In this document: one piece after another, positions 6,424 through 27,303 of the stretch
How positions within the stretch are numbered: position 1 is the first letter of the stretch
How the letters are laid out: every line of letters starts with the position of its first letter
IMG/VR virus record: IMGVR_UViG_3300021963_000047
Coordinates: 1-64,000 of that record
Strand: one strand, 5' to 3'
DNA length: 64,000 nt
From: a virus
Notes under the pieces: model-generated
Told to the model about the DNA's origin: nothing
Database searches by the model: none
Seen by the model: only the letters and a program-made list of their open reading frames with translations
Translations under genes and position numbers: made by a program

Positions 6424-6585
6424 ATGACACATGTGGATCTTCTGCAAGTTGAAATTAATTGGCTTAGACAAATCTTAGAACATATAGATAAAGTTATTAA
6501 GTCAGAGACTATGACAGACTCTGAAAAAACTGTTGCTATTGCGTGGTTGGTTCGTCAAACAAAGAGTGCAAGTAGAGATGAGTGA
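6424..6585 (+). CDS. 53-aa unknown protein
   Basis: ATG at 6424 preceded by GGAG (6413-6416); stop TGA at 6583-6585. The product is a short, mostly helical-looking protein (LLQVEINWLRQILEHIDKV) without cysteine clusters or a membrane segment. Its last 8 bases overlap the start of the ClpP gene, implying translational coupling. No family recognised. Confidence 0.65.
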   Translation: MTHVDLLQVEINWLRQILEHIDKVIKSETMTDSEKTVAIAWLVRQTKSASRDE

Positions 6586-7141
6586 TAAAGAAGATAAGAT
6601 TACAAATATACCAAGTATAGAAGATCATCACTATCTTTTATTTAATAAAGATTTTGATCCAAGTTCTTGTGGTGATGCTATGGAATTTATTATAGCAAGA
6701 AACTTGATGAGAAAAGATCGTCCTAAACATATTAAAATGATTATTAATTCTCCTGGTGGTGAAGTTGGTTCAGCATTTGCATTAATCGATACGATGAAGG
6801 GATCAAAGATACCAGTATACACTTATGGTCTTGGCGAGATTGCTAGTTGTGGTTTAATGACTTTTATTGCAGGAGAAAAAGGTCATCGTTATGTGACTAG
6901 GAATACTGCCATCCTTTCTCACCAATATTCTTGGGGAAGTTATGGTAAAGAACACGAACTTATGGCCCGTGTAAAAGAATTTAATAATACACATGCCCGT
7001 ATTGTTGAACACTATAAGCGCTGTACTGGTTTGGATGAAAAATCTATTAAGAAGTATCTTCTACCCGCAGAAGATGTATGGCTTACTGCTAAAGAAGCAG
7101 TTAAGTATGGGATAGCAGACGAGATCGTGGAGTTTTATTAA
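6578..7141 (+). CDS. clpP: ClpP-family serine protease
   Basis: Start chosen at ATG 6578 (187 aa), overlapping the previous stop; the longer upstream frame runs through the 53-aa gene and has no family match. NSPGGEV is the oxyanion-loop motif, GEIASCG supplies Ser90, SHQYSWG supplies His115, and AEDVWLTAKEA supplies an Asp (D166), so the Ser-His-Asp triad is complete. ClpP forms a tetradecameric protease with AAA+ unfoldases. T4-like marine phages often carry such genes; a role in host proteolysis or in head maturation is possible. No unfoldase gene is seen here. Confidence 0.88.
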   Translation: MSDKEDKITNIPSIEDHHYLLFNKDFDPSSCGDAMEFIIARNLMRKDRPKHIKMIINSPGGEVGSAFALIDTMKGSKIPVYTYGLGEIASCGLMTFIAGEKGHRYVTRNTAILSHQYSWGSYGKEHELMARVKEFNNTHARIVEHYKRCTGLDEKSIKKYLLPAEDVWLTAKEAVKYGIADEIVEFY

Positions 7142-19719: not shown

Positions 19720-20853
19720 ATGGCTAAAGCAGCACGTAGACCGGCGCTCAATGCACGCGCCAAAGTAAAGAAGCCACGGGTCACACGATCTGAGGCATAC
19801 TTGGTCAATCTCAAGTACATGGGCGATGAGCCTGAACTCCGTGGCCAATTGTCAGATTCACAACTTGGTAAGGCTCTTAATTGGTATAATGCCATGTGCT
19901 CTACGTCAGAGTACAAAGAGTACACGCGTGACTATCTTAAGTCTCTCAAACGTGATCGTGAAGCTAAGCAAGTCATGCGAGTGCCTGACCAATATTTTCC
20001 TACCACGATCGGTTCCATCTCACGTCTCTTGTCTCGTGGTTGTACTGTGCAAGATAGCACCATGTCTTTCTTTGAGTCCAAGCTTAAAGAAGCATTGTCT
20101 CGTGTTATCGAAGTAGAAAAGTCAGAGACTCCCGTTGAGAAAGTTTCTATTCAAGATCGTATGAAAGAACGTGCCAACGATATCATCGGCGACATCGAAG
20201 AGATCATCGACTCTGGTGTAGAATTCTCTCTGTACGATCATCTCCAGAAAAACCAGATACCTGCTATGTATGCTACCAAGATCATCGACCATTATCGTCC
20301 GTGGCTCGAAGAACTTTGTGAAGCACACGAAGGTAAATGTGATCAGCTCAAAGAAGCTTATAAGCACCTTACTAAGAAGCAGCTTGAAGCTCGTGTGTTG
20401 TTCATCAACTCATTGATCGAAGATGCTGAACGTTATGGTGACGTTACTAAAAAGCTTCGAGCTCCTCGTAAGCCTCGTGCTGTATCTGCTGAGAAGAAGC
20501 TTAAGAACTTTATCTACATGAAAGAAAGCAATGAGTACAAGATTGCTTCTATCTCTCCTGATAAAGTCTTAGGTGCTCAGGAGCTTTGGACTTTCAATAC
20601 GAAGTATAAGCTGCTGACGGTGTTCCGTGCACGTGGACCGGCAGGTCTCGACGTCAAGCGAACCACTATCATCGGCTATGATGAGTCTACAACAATGACT
20701 AAGCGTTGTGGTCGTAAGCCAGAATACTTCGTTGACAAAGTTCTAAACGGTGGTAAGCTGGTCTTGAGAAAACTGATGGATGAAGCTAAGGGTGATGCAC
20801 CCCTAGCAGCACGCATCAACGAACACACAATCCTTTTGAAGGTGGTATCATGA
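19720..20853 (+). CDS. Unknown 377-aa basic protein
   Basis: ATG at 19720 is chosen because AGAGG lies just upstream; the longer GTG start at 19711 overlaps that site. The N-terminus is very basic (AKAARRPALNARAKVKKPRV), there is a helical middle, and the C-terminal half is again Lys/Arg-rich with KYKLLTVFRARGP. Residue composition suggests nucleic-acid binding. It is the first gene behind a perfect promoter, so it should be expressed early and strongly. No family recognised. It overlaps the next gene by 4 bases. Confidence 0.7.
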   Translation: MAKAARRPALNARAKVKKPRVTRSEAYLVNLKYMGDEPELRGQLSDSQLGKALNWYNAMCSTSEYKEYTRDYLKSLKRDREAKQVMRVPDQYFPTTIGSISRLLSRGCTVQDSTMSFFESKLKEALSRVIEVEKSETPVEKVSIQDRMKERANDIIGDIEEIIDSGVEFSLYDHLQKNQIPAMYATKIIDHYRPWLEELCEAHEGKCDQLKEAYKHLTKKQLEARVLFINSLIEDAERYGDVTKKLRAPRKPRAVSAEKKLKNFIYMKESNEYKIASISPDKVLGAQELWTFNTKYKLLTVFRARGPAGLDVKRTTIIGYDESTTMTKRCGRKPEYFVDKVLNGGKLVLRKLMDEAKGDAPLAARINEHTILLKVVS

Positions 20854-21284
20854 AGATTGTCAATGAATGCAAGATGTTTACGCCTGAACAGCTACAGCTT
20901 CTTGAAAAGAAGTATAACGGCAAGTTTGTGTTTGAGAGTTGTCTTAAAAACAAAGATGGTGGCTGGTGTAATTTTCCAGCCGCTATCTTCTACACTGAAG
21001 AAGCACACCCACAAGGTTCGAACTACTTTGCTATCTGGTTTGATGATGCCGGCCATGTCATGATCTCTAATGGTATCACTGCTACTGAACCATTCTATGG
21101 TATTGTTGTTGATGATACAGCATACTACTCTCGCTATCGTCATGACTATAAAGACTATGGTGGTTTCTTCATCGACGGTGGTCGAGACTATTCACGTTTC
21201 GGCGGATCACGTTTTAAAGATATCAAGAGTTGCACAATGAAAGTAGAAAAAGACAAATTAGCTGTTTACAATGTTAGACAGTAG
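20850..21284 (+). CDS. Unknown 144-aa protein
   Basis: Starts in the previous stop (ATGA). Beta-rich with a Tyr/Gly/Asp-rich C-terminal half (YYSRYRHDYKDYGGFF, GGRDYSRFGGSRF). No known domain. It follows the basic protein and precedes the tmRNA. Confidence 0.6.
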   Translation: MKIVNECKMFTPEQLQLLEKKYNGKFVFESCLKNKDGGWCNFPAAIFYTEEAHPQGSNYFAIWFDDAGHVMISNGITATEPFYGIVVDDTAYYSRYRHDYKDYGGFFIDGGRDYSRFGGSRFKDIKSCTMKVEKDKLAVYNVRQ

Positions 21285-21287
21285 TGG

Positions 21288-21295
21288 TATAAATA
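21288..21295 (+). promoter_or_regulatory. Late promoter box TATAAATA before tmRNA
   Basis: Perfect box 4 bases after the preceding stop. Predicted start near 21301, exactly where the tmRNA precursor seems to begin. Confidence 0.6.
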
Positions 21296-21299
21296 ATCA

Positions 21300-21582
21300 T
21301 GCTGAGGTCGTTGAGGCGTTCAGAATAAACGTTTCGGACGCGGGGGCAGTACCCGCCGCCTCCACCACAGATACATTCTTTGAGGTCTTGGTCGTTACCA
21401 GCATAGCAAAAACGGCGACAGAGTGTATCTTTGATGGGGGCGAAATAGGATCGACGTGCGTAGTAAAGGTACGAAGAGACCGAAAGCAACGTATAGATGC
21501 AAACGATAATGCACCTTTCGCTATGGCAGTAGCTGCCTAAGCATGAGCTCGGTGGGGAGCTTGGAAACAGAATCCCCACCAC
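21300..21582 (+). ncRNA. ssrA: Circularly permuted (two-piece) tmRNA, alphaproteobacterial type
   Basis: The acceptor piece comes first: T arm GCGGG-GGCAGTA-CCCGC (21340-21356) then CGCCTCC and ACCA (21357-21367). After an intervening segment the coding piece begins with GGGGGCGAAATAGGATCGACG (21436 on), whose GGGGGCG pairs with CGCCTCC with one G-T pair. The tag frame at 21499-21540 encodes ANDNAPFAMAVAA and a TAA. A hairpin GGTGGGGA/TCCCCACC (21551-21580) ends it. This order is that of alphaproteobacterial split tmRNA, which rescues stalled ribosomes with SmpB and tags products for ClpXP-type proteolysis. Boundaries of the mature pieces are estimates. Confidence 0.93.
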
Positions 21583-21590
21583 AGTTTATT

Positions 21591-21667
21591 GGTCACTTAG
21601 CTCAGCAGGATAGAGCAACAGCCTTCTAAGCTGTGGGTCGATGGTTCGAATCCATCAGTGATCACCA
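21591..21667 (+). tRNA. tRNA-Arg (anticodon TCT)
   Basis: Acceptor GGTCACT/AGTGATC, anticodon stem ACAGC/GCTGT with loop CTTCTAA (anticodon TCT), T arm GATGG-TTCGAAT-CCATC, encoded ACCA. It reads AGA, the dominant Arg codon in the structural genes. Confidence 0.93.
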
Positions 21668-21794: not shown

Positions 21795-21801
21795 AATTTA
21801 C

Positions 21802-21893
21802 GGGGGTGGGTGTTGGTACACGGGAGGGCCTTATAATCCCTTTAGCGCCCGATTAGCGTTCTTGACTCGGTTCGAATCCGGGCACCCCTACCA
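21802..21893 (+). tRNA. tRNA with long variable arm, apparent anticodon TAT
   Basis: Acceptor GGGGGTG/CACCCCT (first pair G-T), D arm GTG/CAC, T arm CTCGG-TTCGAAT-CCGGG, encoded ACCA. The anticodon arm AGGGC-CTTATAA-TCCCT has a C-T mismatch at the loop end and gives anticodon TAT (Ile, AUA). The variable arm is a 5-bp hairpin (AGCGC/GCGTT), normal for Leu/Ser/Tyr rather than Ile. The tRNA is clear; its amino acid is not. Confidence 0.7.
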
Positions 21894-23921: not shown

Positions 23922-23949
23922 AAGGGGGCGAAAGCCCCCTTCTTTTTTA
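23922..23949 (+). terminator. Strong intrinsic terminator after gp32
   Basis: Stem AAGGGGGC/GCCCCCTT with a GAAA tetraloop, followed by CTTTTTT. Textbook Rho-independent terminator. The last bases overlap the stop of the opposite-strand lysin, so the hairpin may also help end leftward transcription. Confidence 0.95.
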
Positions 23950-26900
23950 TGATACCATTGAACCCGCTCTAGCTCTCCTGTTAACAGACACACTGTTACT
24001 TCCAAGAGATTCTACTAATGCGCCGGCTATACCACCTGCGAGTACTTCAGCAAATCCTCCACCCGGACTGGCACTAGGAATACCATCTATACCAAAACGT
24101 TTTTCTGATGGTGTGCTATAAGTTCTATTATCTTGTGGTGAAACAACCACTGGACCAGATCTTCTATTATCTCTAGCAATATCCATATTTGTTGAGCGAG
24201 TATTAATATTAGAGCCAGTATTAACTGGTTGACTAATCAGACTTTGACCTAAGTTTCCAAGTGTACTGCCTAACATACCTCCAAGCATGCTACCCATGGG
24301 TCCAGCTCTTCCACCAAGCATACTTCCTAGCATACCACCTAAACCGCCAAGACCCATGCCTCTGCCACCCATCATTCCCATACCCATGCCTCTTCCACCC
24401 ATCATTCCCATGCCTAACATTCCACCTAATGGATTTCCACCCATCATTCCCATACCGCCCATAGCTCCACCAGCACCTAATCCGGTAACGCTTCCACCAG
24501 GTGTTGGTTGATAGCTACCACCAGTTGCAGCTCCTGCACCTTGTCTTCCTTCATTCTCTCCACCTTTAGCCATTTGACCGCCACGAGCTTCATTGCTTGA
24601 ACCACCTTCATTGCCACCCATAGAGAAGTGCATTGTATCTTTACTTGATCTCCAATTGCCACCCCAACCTAATCCATGTTTTGCTGCCATAGCACCAACG
24701 TTTGCTGGCATATCTGTTTTTCCATAGTTTTGAGAACCAGGAAATGTATGTGGATTTTCTGAAGGATTGATATCAATTGCCATGCCTTTTGAGTGCCAAC
24801 TAAAACCACCTGAAGCAGTAGATCTATTAGCATATCCACCAATAGATTTAATCTTATATCCCGAACCTTCAAGTTCATTAACAAAACCTTCAAAATTCTT
24901 AGCATATTCTGCAGCAACTTGATATGGTCTACCTCCGGGTGTTTTTAATGTAACCATACCACCTTGCTGTCTTCTACCTTCATTTTCAGGAAACTGTGTT
25001 GGACCCTGTTGTCTATTTGGTCTACCTTGATTATCGTCGGGGGTTATAGGTCCTTGTTCTCTTCCTGGTGTGCCTTGTGGAGATTCTGGTCCTGTTGGTC
25101 CTTGTTCTCTTCCGGGTCTACCTTGATTATCTGGGAATTGTGTTGGACCTTGTTGTCTATTTGGTCTTCCTTGTGGAGAATCTTGACCAGCAGGACCTTG
25201 TTGTCTGCTTCCTCCACCACCAGAATATATTGAATAAACTTTTGAAGCCCATGTTGGATTAACAGTATTATAACCGCCGGCTACTAAATTTTTTAACGTT
25301 GTTTCTGCATCACCAGAATATCTACTACCCCATCTACGAACATGATGTTTTACAGCAGATTCTAATGAGTCATAAACTGCATGCAGTTGACCGTCAGCTC
25401 CCCTTGTACCACCGACTATTCCATCTTTACCGATCTGCGCTTGTGTTATAGTTTGTCCAAATGGATTATTGGCTCTTTGAGTCATAGAGCTCTTTAACCA
25501 ACCTGATTCTAACATTGCTATTGCAGCTGTAACTTTTGGATCAGGAGAACCTGCTGCTTTAGCAGCTTGTTCCATTTTAGCAAAAGCTTCTGAATTAGAT
25601 CCAGTGAAACGCATTGGTTGTGTTTGATTTAATCCAGCAGTTGCTCCACTAGCAGCAGCTTGAACATTAGGGGCTCCGCCGGGATTAGTAACATAGTTCC
25701 CAGAATTGTTCTCTAGTTTAGGACCCTGTCTTAATGCTGGCTCGCTCGGTTGACCAGATGCTGCTTGTGATGTAGCAGTTGCAGTTGATGCTGCAGATTG
25801 TGAAGCATTATTAGATGATGCACCACCACTTGCTGCGTTTTGATTATCTGGTGGTAATGGTGGTTGATTACCCCTTTGCAATGCTTCAGATGTTTGTCCA
25901 ACTTTGTTTGGTCTTTTTGTTTCAGAAAGTGTTTGTCCATTAAACTCTTTCCATAATTCATATACTTCCCATGCTAAAGATACATTGCCAATAACATTAA
26001 TTGCTGTCCATATCCAACCCGGACCGGGAATGGTCATTCCGGCACCCATAGAAACTAATCTAGGACCAATCTTTGCCATTAAGTTTGGAGCTTTCTTTTC
26101 TAAGAAAGCTAAGAACTTAGACCATTTAGAAGTACTTGCGCCTGCAGTTTTAGATTCTGCTTTAGCCCACGGAGATCTTGTTTCAGAAGTCGGCGAAGAT
26201 ATATCAACTGGTTTTATATTATTTTTTGTTCCACTGCCACCAAGCATTCCTGCTACATCTGCAGCTACTCCTAAACCAGCAAAAGCTAAATTGGTAGCTG
26301 ATGAACCATCATTTAATGTTTCACCAATAAACTGTGCAGGTTTTGCACCTACTGCTGGCATATCTGCAATAGATTCTTGCATAAATTTTTCTGCTGCACC
26401 CGCATCTCGCATGGCCAATTCATTGGCTTTAACTTTATCAGCATCAGACAGTCTATAATAATTACCTAAAGCTTGAGGATTATTGAGCTGCCAATATTTG
26501 TATGTTGTTGGATTTAATTGCGGACCTGTTGCTGCTTCTTTTATAAACTTCTTATCAGGTGCTTTACTTGAATCAGAAGATGTGTTGTCTTCGCCATCAC
26601 CACCATCTTCACCACCACTGCCTAAAAGAGAACCAAGACCTAAAGCACCAAGACCAAGAGCTCCAGCTCTTCCACCTAATCCAGGTATTCTTCCTGGTGT
26701 TTTGCCTTTTCCTTTTCCAGCACCACCTCCGCCACCGCCGCCAACAATACCACCAGCATTATTGGTGTTATTATTAACAGTATTATAGGTGTTATTATTA
26801 ACTGTCTGTTGTACAACAGGTGGTGGTTCTTTTTTATAGAGAAGACGATTTACTGCAACTTCAACTCTTTCTTGTGAAAGAAGTATGTCTTCTAAAACAT

Positions 26901-27303
26901 CATCTATTTTTTTTAATCTTGAACCAAGAGCAGTTATATTTTGATTTACTGCAGAATTTTGTTGTTTGAGAGCAGAATATTCTGAAGCAGTTTGATTATC
27001 ACGTGTTGTTACAGAATCAGAACTAGCTTTAGAATTTTTTTTTGTATCTTTATTTTTTTCTTCTTTAGGATTAAATATGGCTTTTCCAAGTGTACCGGTT
27101 CTGCTTGCAGCACCTCTTCTCATGTCTTGAGATACTTGTTTTCTAAAAGTCATGGGAGCTTCATCAGGATCAGTTAAACCCTGTCTCTCATCTCTTTTCC
27201 TCTGGTAGTATCTACCTACACTACCAAAATTTCCCATGCCTGTATAAGCTGAGTCTTTTAATGCTTCTTTTACTCTGCCAAACAGTCCTTCGTTTTCAGC
27301 CAT
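23947..27303 (-). CDS. Virion lysin: glucosaminidase plus M15-type peptidase, 1118 aa
   Basis: Domains in order: basic N-terminus and coiled-coil (about 100-155), Gly-rich linker (185-230), a helical/hydrophobic middle (300-450), Ala/Ser/Gln linker, a FlgJ-like glucosaminidase domain (about 563-695; candidate Glu at E599 in MLESGW), proline/glycine/glutamine repeats containing RQQGP and REQGP (700-780), an L-Ala-D-Glu/VanY-like M15 peptidase (about 790-895; SWHSKGMAIDIN and MHF give H837, D844, H892), then a Met/Gly-rich repeat (920-1020). Both hydrolases attack peptidoglycan. Gene order after gp48-gp26 points to a baseplate-hub or tail-tip lysin replacing the T4 gp5 lysozyme domain. Confidence 0.85.
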   Translation of the reverse strand: MAENEGLFGRVKEALKDSAYTGMGNFGSVGRYYQRKRDERQGLTDPDEAPMTFRKQVSQDMRRGAASRTGTLGKAIFNPKEEKNKDTKKNSKASSDSVTTRDNQTASEYSALKQQNSAVNQNITALGSRLKKIDDVLEDILLSQERVEVAVNRLLYKKEPPPVVQQTVNNNTYNTVNNNTNNAGGIVGGGGGGGAGKGKGKTPGRIPGLGGRAGALGLGALGLGSLLGSGGEDGGDGEDNTSSDSSKAPDKKFIKEAATGPQLNPTTYKYWQLNNPQALGNYYRLSDADKVKANELAMRDAGAAEKFMQESIADMPAVGAKPAQFIGETLNDGSSATNLAFAGLGVAADVAGMLGGSGTKNNIKPVDISSPTSETRSPWAKAESKTAGASTSKWSKFLAFLEKKAPNLMAKIGPRLVSMGAGMTIPGPGWIWTAINVIGNVSLAWEVYELWKEFNGQTLSETKRPNKVGQTSEALQRGNQPPLPPDNQNAASGGASSNNASQSAASTATATSQAASGQPSEPALRQGPKLENNSGNYVTNPGGAPNVQAAASGATAGLNQTQPMRFTGSNSEAFAKMEQAAKAAGSPDPKVTAAIAMLESGWLKSSMTQRANNPFGQTITQAQIGKDGIVGGTRGADGQLHAVYDSLESAVKHHVRRWGSRYSGDAETTLKNLVAGGYNTVNPTWASKVYSIYSGGGGSRQQGPAGQDSPQGRPNRQQGPTQFPDNQGRPGREQGPTGPESPQGTPGREQGPITPDDNQGRPNRQQGPTQFPENEGRRQQGGMVTLKTPGGRPYQVAAEYAKNFEGFVNELEGSGYKIKSIGGYANRSTASGGFSWHSKGMAIDINPSENPHTFPGSQNYGKTDMPANVGAMAAKHGLGWGGNWRSSKDTMHFSMGGNEGGSSNEARGGQMAKGGENEGRQGAGAATGGSYQPTPGGSVTGLGAGGAMGGMGMMGGNPLGGMLGMGMMGGRGMGMGMMGGRGMGLGGLGGMLGSMLGGRAGPMGSMLGGMLGSTLGNLGQSLISQPVNTGSNINTRSTNMDIARDNRRSGPVVVSPQDNRTYSTPSEKRFGIDGIPSASPGGGFAEVLAGGIAGALVESLGSNSVSVNRRARAGSMVS

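Follow-up and report, generated by a model that had tools for sequence, protein, structure and literature searches.

The locus at positions 21288-21581 of this phage DNA raises two questions: what RNA gene it is and where it comes from, and what the short sequence between the two mature parts of that gene is for. The window analysed here is a stretch of 64,000 nucleotides from a 117,581-base record of a T4-like phage. We read the locus as an intact tmRNA gene of a phage lineage that would be expressed late, processed and active in ribosome rescue, with a spacer that would serve as an exchangeable cassette, and we give this explanation as a whole a probability of roughly 0.8. The spacer is the most unusual part of the locus and had gone unmentioned in the preliminary description.

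Two-piece tmRNA was reportedly described in Caulobacter by Keiler et al. in 2000. In phages, a two-piece tmRNA is described in isolate Melnitz by Buchholz et al. 2022 (PMC9004378), whose available part counts 53 such structures in phage genomes (50 are marine or aquatic), and our pattern scan of IMG/VR returned at least 120 phage permuted-tmRNA loci; the supposition of the preliminary description that the molecule is unusual for a phage is not supported. Phage permuted tmRNA is already known, and what appears to be new, as judged from sequence comparison, is the swapping of its spacer and the small genes carried there. The available part of PMC9004378 mentions neither spacer ORFs nor spacer swapping, and no earlier report of spacer ORFs or phage spacer exchange was found in the literature searched, which was mostly open-access. 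The phage tmRNA spacer has apparently been regarded so far as discarded filler.

The loci used for comparison (numbers prefixed L) are uncultured contigs retrieved by one exact motif, identical for the phage and bacterial samples.

The two-piece tmRNA gene

The locus matches the Rfam model RF01849 (alpha_tmRNA) at window positions 21261-21581 (119.9 bits, gathering cut-off 50, E 4e-32) and RF04321 (tmRNA_permuted) at 21306-21540 (111 bits, cut-off 47). A permuted tmRNA is also called by ARAGORN, with the tag ANDNAPFAMAVAA followed by a stop codon. The preliminary description had proposed a permuted tmRNA in two pieces with the acceptor half first, to be checked against the alphaproteobacterial model, and both Rfam models and ARAGORN bear it out. 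The features of the locus are as follows.

20850..21284, + strand: upstream gene of unknown function (phrog_12504), marker of the syntenic locus
21288..21295, + strand: T4-type late promoter box TATAAATA (motif and positional conservation among phage loci)
21302..21367, + strand: acceptor piece (RF01849 and RF04321 alignments; 5' end putative)
21340-21356, + strand: T arm of the acceptor piece (sequence reading)
21357-21363, + strand: acceptor 3' strand CGCCTCC (sequence reading)
21364-21367, + strand: encoded ACCA (sequence reading)
21368..21435, + strand: spacer (intervening sequence, IVS) between the two mature pieces, 68 nt
21378..21421, + strand: 44-nt spacer core, matched letter for letter in the tmRNA spacers of L271-L273
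21436..21581, + strand: coding piece, from acceptor 5' strand to 3'-terminal hairpin (Rfam alignments)
21436-21442, + strand: acceptor 5' strand GGGGGCG (sequence reading)
21499..21540, + strand: tag reading frame ANDNAPFAMAVAA with stop (ARAGORN)
21551-21580, + strand: 3'-terminal hairpin GGTGGGG/CCCCACC (sequence reading)
21591..21667, + strand: tRNA-Arg(TCT) (ARAGORN/Rfam), adjoining the tmRNA in siblings too

The acceptor piece is encoded ahead of the coding piece; the acceptor stem formed between them is paired at 7/7 positions, the alanine-identity pair G3.U70 reads from the sequence as G21438.U21361, and CCA is encoded. The tag frame has an Ala resume codon, a hydrophobic end in AA and a stop. 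The 3' hairpin is GGTGGGG/CCCCACC in the window and GAGGGG/CCCCTC in siblings L142, L143 and L139, a compensatory change, and conservation of the acceptor stem is too high for any test of that kind. Among siblings the acceptor piece and other mature sequence are 93-100% conserved, their upstream flanks being 70-100% identical. Gene order, T-loop type, G3.U70, encoded CCA, an Ala-resume tag ending in AA and a 3' hairpin with GGAAACAGAA are all shared with alphaproteobacterial tmRNA (RF01849). From its sequence, window 21288-21581 is almost certainly a circularly permuted two-piece tmRNA of alphaproteobacterial type. No SmpB gene was found in the whole record; phage-encoded SmpB was rejected on that ground, and rescue would depend on host SmpB.

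Late promoter

The octamer TATAAATA alone proves nothing, because its count in the window equals chance (12 copies found, 12.1 expected, no over-representation); five of the 12 copies nevertheless lie between genes, where non-coding sequence makes up only 4.3% of the window. Its position before the tmRNA is conserved. Among the matches listed, the box stands 65-82 nt ahead of the acceptor end in 90 of the 118 phage permuted-tmRNA loci with enough upstream sequence to be scored, against a chance expectation from the flanks of 1.23 of 118, and in 0/102 bacterial permuted-tmRNA loci. The phage also encodes the late sigma factor gp55 (phrog_234, E 1.6e-55) and the sliding clamp gp45 (phrog_223, E 1.1e-64). 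The fixed position and the two proteins uphold the earlier claim that the tmRNA has its own late promoter at its 5' end, and we regard the box as very probably genuine; by analogy with T4 spacing, the transcript is predicted to start at about 21302.

For Melnitz, the available part of PMC9004378 proposes early expression of the tmRNA and early tagging of host proteins. The Melnitz box lies 77 nt before the acceptor end, which is the modal distance, and conservation of this box speaks for late expression, contrary to that proposal. A fixed late box would imply that phage tmRNA acts late and protects virion-protein synthesis, which is directly testable against early host-protein tagging.

Origin of the tmRNA and host

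The Methylophilales phage Melnitz and the Pelagibacter phages HTVC008M and Mosig (L132-L134) are, according to the available part of PMC9004378, T4-like marine phages with a permuted tmRNA, as here; their tags differ from the window tag. Melnitz resembles the window in its TATAAATA box and also has a long spacer, which holds an ORF that the window spacer lacks. A glutamine riboswitch follows the tmRNA in Melnitz and none does in the window; as it is located after the tmRNA and outside the spacer, it was rejected as a spacer RNA.

By gp6 protein, Caulobacter phage Cr30 (39.7%) is nearest among named phages, with Sinorhizobium phages at 37%, followed by cyanophages, Pelagibacter phage HTVC008M and Melnitz. 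Permuted tmRNA is absent from Cr30, phiM12 and phiN3 and present in Melnitz, Mosig and HTVC008M, and a blastn search with the window tmRNA against named phages gave no match. The exact tag ANDNAPFAMAVAA was found in 10 viral contigs and had 0 matches in an 84,980-species genome collection. In a tmRNA tree, 87/89 phage rows are set apart from 58 alphaproteobacterial rows by a split of moderate support (84/82), and the phage/bacterial label changes 2 times, against 46 when shuffled, the rows being short, near copies inflating the contrast and SAR11 being absent from the sample.

The preliminary description had taken the molecule to point to the host lineage and had asked for a phylogeny. This holds only in a broad sense: the phage rows group apart and the tag occurs in no record of the genome collection. 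The same two results weigh, the first with the limited support of its split, against a recent capture of ssrA from an alphaproteobacterial host, in which case the tmRNA would be a passenger gene that names the host. Such a capture would agree with the best fit of the alphaproteobacterial Rfam model and with the nearest named gp6 relatives, Cr30 and the Sinorhizobium phages, which infect alphaproteobacteria, but not with a late promoter specific to phages or with the lack of permuted tmRNA in Cr30, phiM12 and phiN3, and we hold it to be improbable. On a split of moderate support, the window tmRNA is a phage-lineage gene with no recent host capture. The host of the phage is likely to be alphaproteobacterial.

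Replacement of the spacer

Among the matches listed, phage spacers have a median length of 79 nt, with 69/120 at 72 nt or longer, whereas bacterial spacers, mostly plain short hairpins, have a median of 34 nt, with 2/104 at 72 nt or longer (Fisher p 4e-22). Phage spacer lengths are bimodal among these matches, mostly 19-38 and 56-267 nt. The stem AGATACATTCT/AGAGTGTATCT closes the window spacer. In 72 distinct long spacers among the matches listed, the first eight positions are 98% paired with the last ones, against 79% (maximum 81% in 500 shuffles) when 3' partners are swapped between spacers. This difference indicates that a precursor stem is maintained, consistent with a hairpin precursor that is cleaved. 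No ribozyme family was found at the spacer site.

In an alignment of 11 loci sharing the upstream gene, the mature pieces are near-invariant and the spacers unrelated, and the spacers are likewise unrelated in siblings with 96-100% identical flanks. The window shares kilobase flanks at 98% identity with L027 and L136 (which lie on the same contigs as L141 and L150, respectively), and the three spacers, of 68, 93 and 99 nt, are about as alike as shuffled sequences. Between L105 and L140 the upstream 1000 nt is 100% identical and the spacers are unrelated. In another lineage, L064 and L097 share flanks at 99.9% over 2439 nt; their spacers are unrelated, one ORF being swapped for a different ORF. 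Short phage spacers show no turnover. Bacterial spacers keep homology above the shuffled level at equal mature identity, despite far more diverged flanks; alphaproteobacterial tmRNA differs from the phage loci in its short spacers (the median given above), the absence of a late box and, in the sample, gradual divergence with no replacement.

Spacers are also shared between otherwise dissimilar loci. The tmRNAs of L271-L273, which hold the 44-nt window core, are overall 76-77% identical to that of the window, have a different tag and carry the core on a different closing stem; in the window/L271 case the breakpoints lie inside the stem. Spacer identity exceeds that of the coding piece in L010/L013 (99% and 65%, with flanks at 58-60%), L015/L122 (97% and 79%), L056/L057 (95% and 77%) and L079/L117 (98% and 77%), and flanks are about 60% identical in three of these four pairs. 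The window core recurs in one other phage group only. Three sibling spacer cores were each found in their own contig only, and the idea that these other cores are widespread mobile elements was rejected on that account.

A spacer that moves independently of the mature tmRNA fits these comparisons best, and it is highly probable that it is a cassette exchanged between phages. The mature pieces could act as short homology arms for the exchange.

Small ORFs in the spacers of relatives

Sorted by hand on ORF content, 35 of 71 distinct long spacers (among the matches listed) hold a small ORF, several of them behind a good Shine-Dalgarno sequence. The family named here ICINNYS, a microprotein of about 35 aa, is represented by 28 distinct spacer sequences with pN/pS 0.26 in frame and 1.85 and 0.84 out of frame. 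For a membrane-type peptide, MKNPLVKK..WSICAD, pN/pS is 0.16 (equal-length pairs) to 0.28 (all pairs) in frame and 1.08 and 2.64 out of frame. By these ratios, both families are clearly under coding (purifying) selection.

An alignment search for ICINNYS gave 72 loci (L274-L345), divided by context, with approximate assignment of single loci, into 48 in tmRNA spacers and 24 free-standing phage genes; both automatic criteria recovered 36 of the 48, and the remainder have an acceptor end. The free-standing genes, on 24 contigs, have pN/pS 0.28. ICINNYS had no Pfam or PHROG match and is absent from named phage records. ICINNYS-type cassettes have their stop codon 11-13 nt into the coding piece, and in the remaining spacer loci the frame continues, the TAG being altered or not in frame. 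With the stop inside the coding piece, tmRNA maturation would make the cargo mRNA non-stop.

The Melnitz spacer (L132:1584-1703) contains an unannotated ORF after a Shine-Dalgarno sequence; it encodes a peptide MFKWLSKTRLVVITRDYFRERNRKADAKIPKYLSG..., with the start MFKWLSKTRLVV. The sibling type of L042, L135, L137 and L138 has a 33-aa spacer ORF. Among named phages, no relative of the spacer ORFs was found besides Melnitz itself. Ten spacer peptides were tried: none had a PHROG, and Pfam gave only two weak matches below curated cut-offs (DUF2061, DUF7563). At their ends, the peptides of L043 and L097 look similar to the Melnitz spacer peptide.

Non-coding spacers

The 68-nt window spacer has no ORF of at least 20 aa. 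A known RNA family was rejected, as Rfam gave nothing credible even at E 10. Folding of the window core is no more stable than that of shuffles (z 0.49), and non-coding cores as a class show no extra stability (mean z -0.38). Antisense action on the phage's own genome was likewise rejected, the longest complement being 13 nt where shuffles give 10-14, and T-arm mimicry was dropped for non-coding spacers (3/36 against 0.56 expected, with shuffles also reaching 3). Non-coding cores have a G+C content above that of their flanks in 32/36 cases. The window core may act in trans as a small RNA, serve as a decoy or be nothing more than filler.

Some non-coding spacers resemble one another. Those of L052 and L094 (157 and 138 nt) have two conserved blocks, 85-88% identical, round a variable centre, possibly a structured RNA. 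Those of L008, L062 and L074 have a common element near the 5' side, 77-81% identical over 32-95 nt, with variable loops.

Alternative explanations of the spacer differences

Long inverted repeats, of which this region is one, are known to be hazardous for assembly, and the differences might be metagenome assembly artefacts at a strong hairpin; this is scarcely credible, given that four contigs from different metagenomes have an identical L042-type spacer, that the window core is present in three further contigs, that closing stems covary, that spacer ORFs are under codon-level selection, and that cultured Melnitz has its long ORF-bearing spacer identical in four isolate records. A larger share of doubt belongs to the idea that the spacer is unconstrained junk, in which any stem-closing sequence would do and insertions, being discarded with the spacer, would build up neutrally. 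The lack of extra folding stability in the non-coding cores and the unconvincing T-arm test are in keeping with it, and bacterial spacers vary too. Yet what the alignments contain is replacement and not drift, with unrelated alleles on 98-100% identical flanks; some alleles are 95-100% identical across phages whose flanks are about 60% alike. Purifying selection acts on the ORF cassettes, G+C content is higher in most non-coding cores than in the flanks beside them, and short phage spacers do not turn over. We consider junk rather unlikely, and prefer the exchanged cassette.

A selected function for the cargo is slightly favoured overall, and more so for the ORF families. The odds are even on a stronger proposal, that the spacer is a dedicated cargo niche, a late and insulated precursor RNA in which microprotein or small-RNA cassettes (in the window, the 44-nt core) are exchanged under selection. 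If so, expression of the ICINNYS cargo would be coupled to the same tmRNA on which its rescue would depend. If the spacer is an exchange site, tmRNA annotation hides microprotein genes, one of them in cultured Melnitz, and the tmRNA precursor is a second kind of expression platform.

Proposed mechanism

We infer the following course. Transcription of the gp55 type from TATAAATA would drive the tmRNA late in infection. The precursor would be cut after ACCA (21367) and before GGGGGCG (21436), probably by host tRNA-processing enzymes, yielding the acceptor piece and the coding piece, which together with host alanyl-tRNA synthetase and host SmpB would release ribosomes that have stalled on broken late mRNAs, tagging the products for Clp-type proteolysis. 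The spacer would need only to close its stem, and the sequence within would be a replaceable cassette traded among phages, occupied here by a non-coding core and by a small protein gene in many relatives.

Group I introns can carry homing endonuclease genes. In tmRNA genes they interrupt the T-loop and are self-splicing (tmRNA database 2025, PMC11915505, available part); like the phage cargo they are extra sequence in a tmRNA precursor, later removed, but the phage cargo sits in the natural spacer of a permuted gene and no ligation is needed. The same source names the IVS, one of which holds an intact tRNA-Ala and another a repetitive element. These insertions are a precedent for cargo in the spacer of a permuted tmRNA, although they are isolated cellular cases, and the available part of the source describes neither exchange among close relatives nor microprotein families.

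The phage and neighbouring genes

As a T4-like phage, the record encodes gp32, tail tube, gp6 and further baseplate wedge genes, tail sheath and portal, together with gp21, scaffold, major head protein, terminase, gp55, gp45 and a T4-type translation repressor. Relatives of the upstream gene occur at 11 loci; the tmRNA adjoins in 10, and in the eleventh, L148, the contig stops within the tmRNA. The tRNA-Arg(TCT) gene probably shares the late transcript with the tmRNA. The ClpP-like protein and gp21 are placed as follows.

6533..7141, + strand: ClpP-like serine protease (PF00574, 113.9 bits, E 1.1e-32; PDB ClpP, E 9e-18)
record 85397-86071: gp21 prohead protease (Peptidase_S77), separate from the ClpP-like protein

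The Ser, His and Asp positions of the ClpP-like protein align with those of solved ClpP chains, so that the ClpP-type protease noted earlier is present indeed. It was rejected as the prohead protease, since gp21 is encoded separately. It could plausibly act on tmRNA-tagged products.

At 21800-21893, ARAGORN calls a 94-nt tRNA-Ile(TAT) that the Rfam tRNA search does not match at the gathering cut-off; a tRNA-Ile(TAT) is called in sibling L149 as well, and the call may reflect a long variable arm or a misread anticodon. On the minus strand, 23947-27303 encodes a protein of 1118 aa, of which PHROGs recognises residues ~796-913 only, with an endolysin-like match and a weak ferredoxin match.
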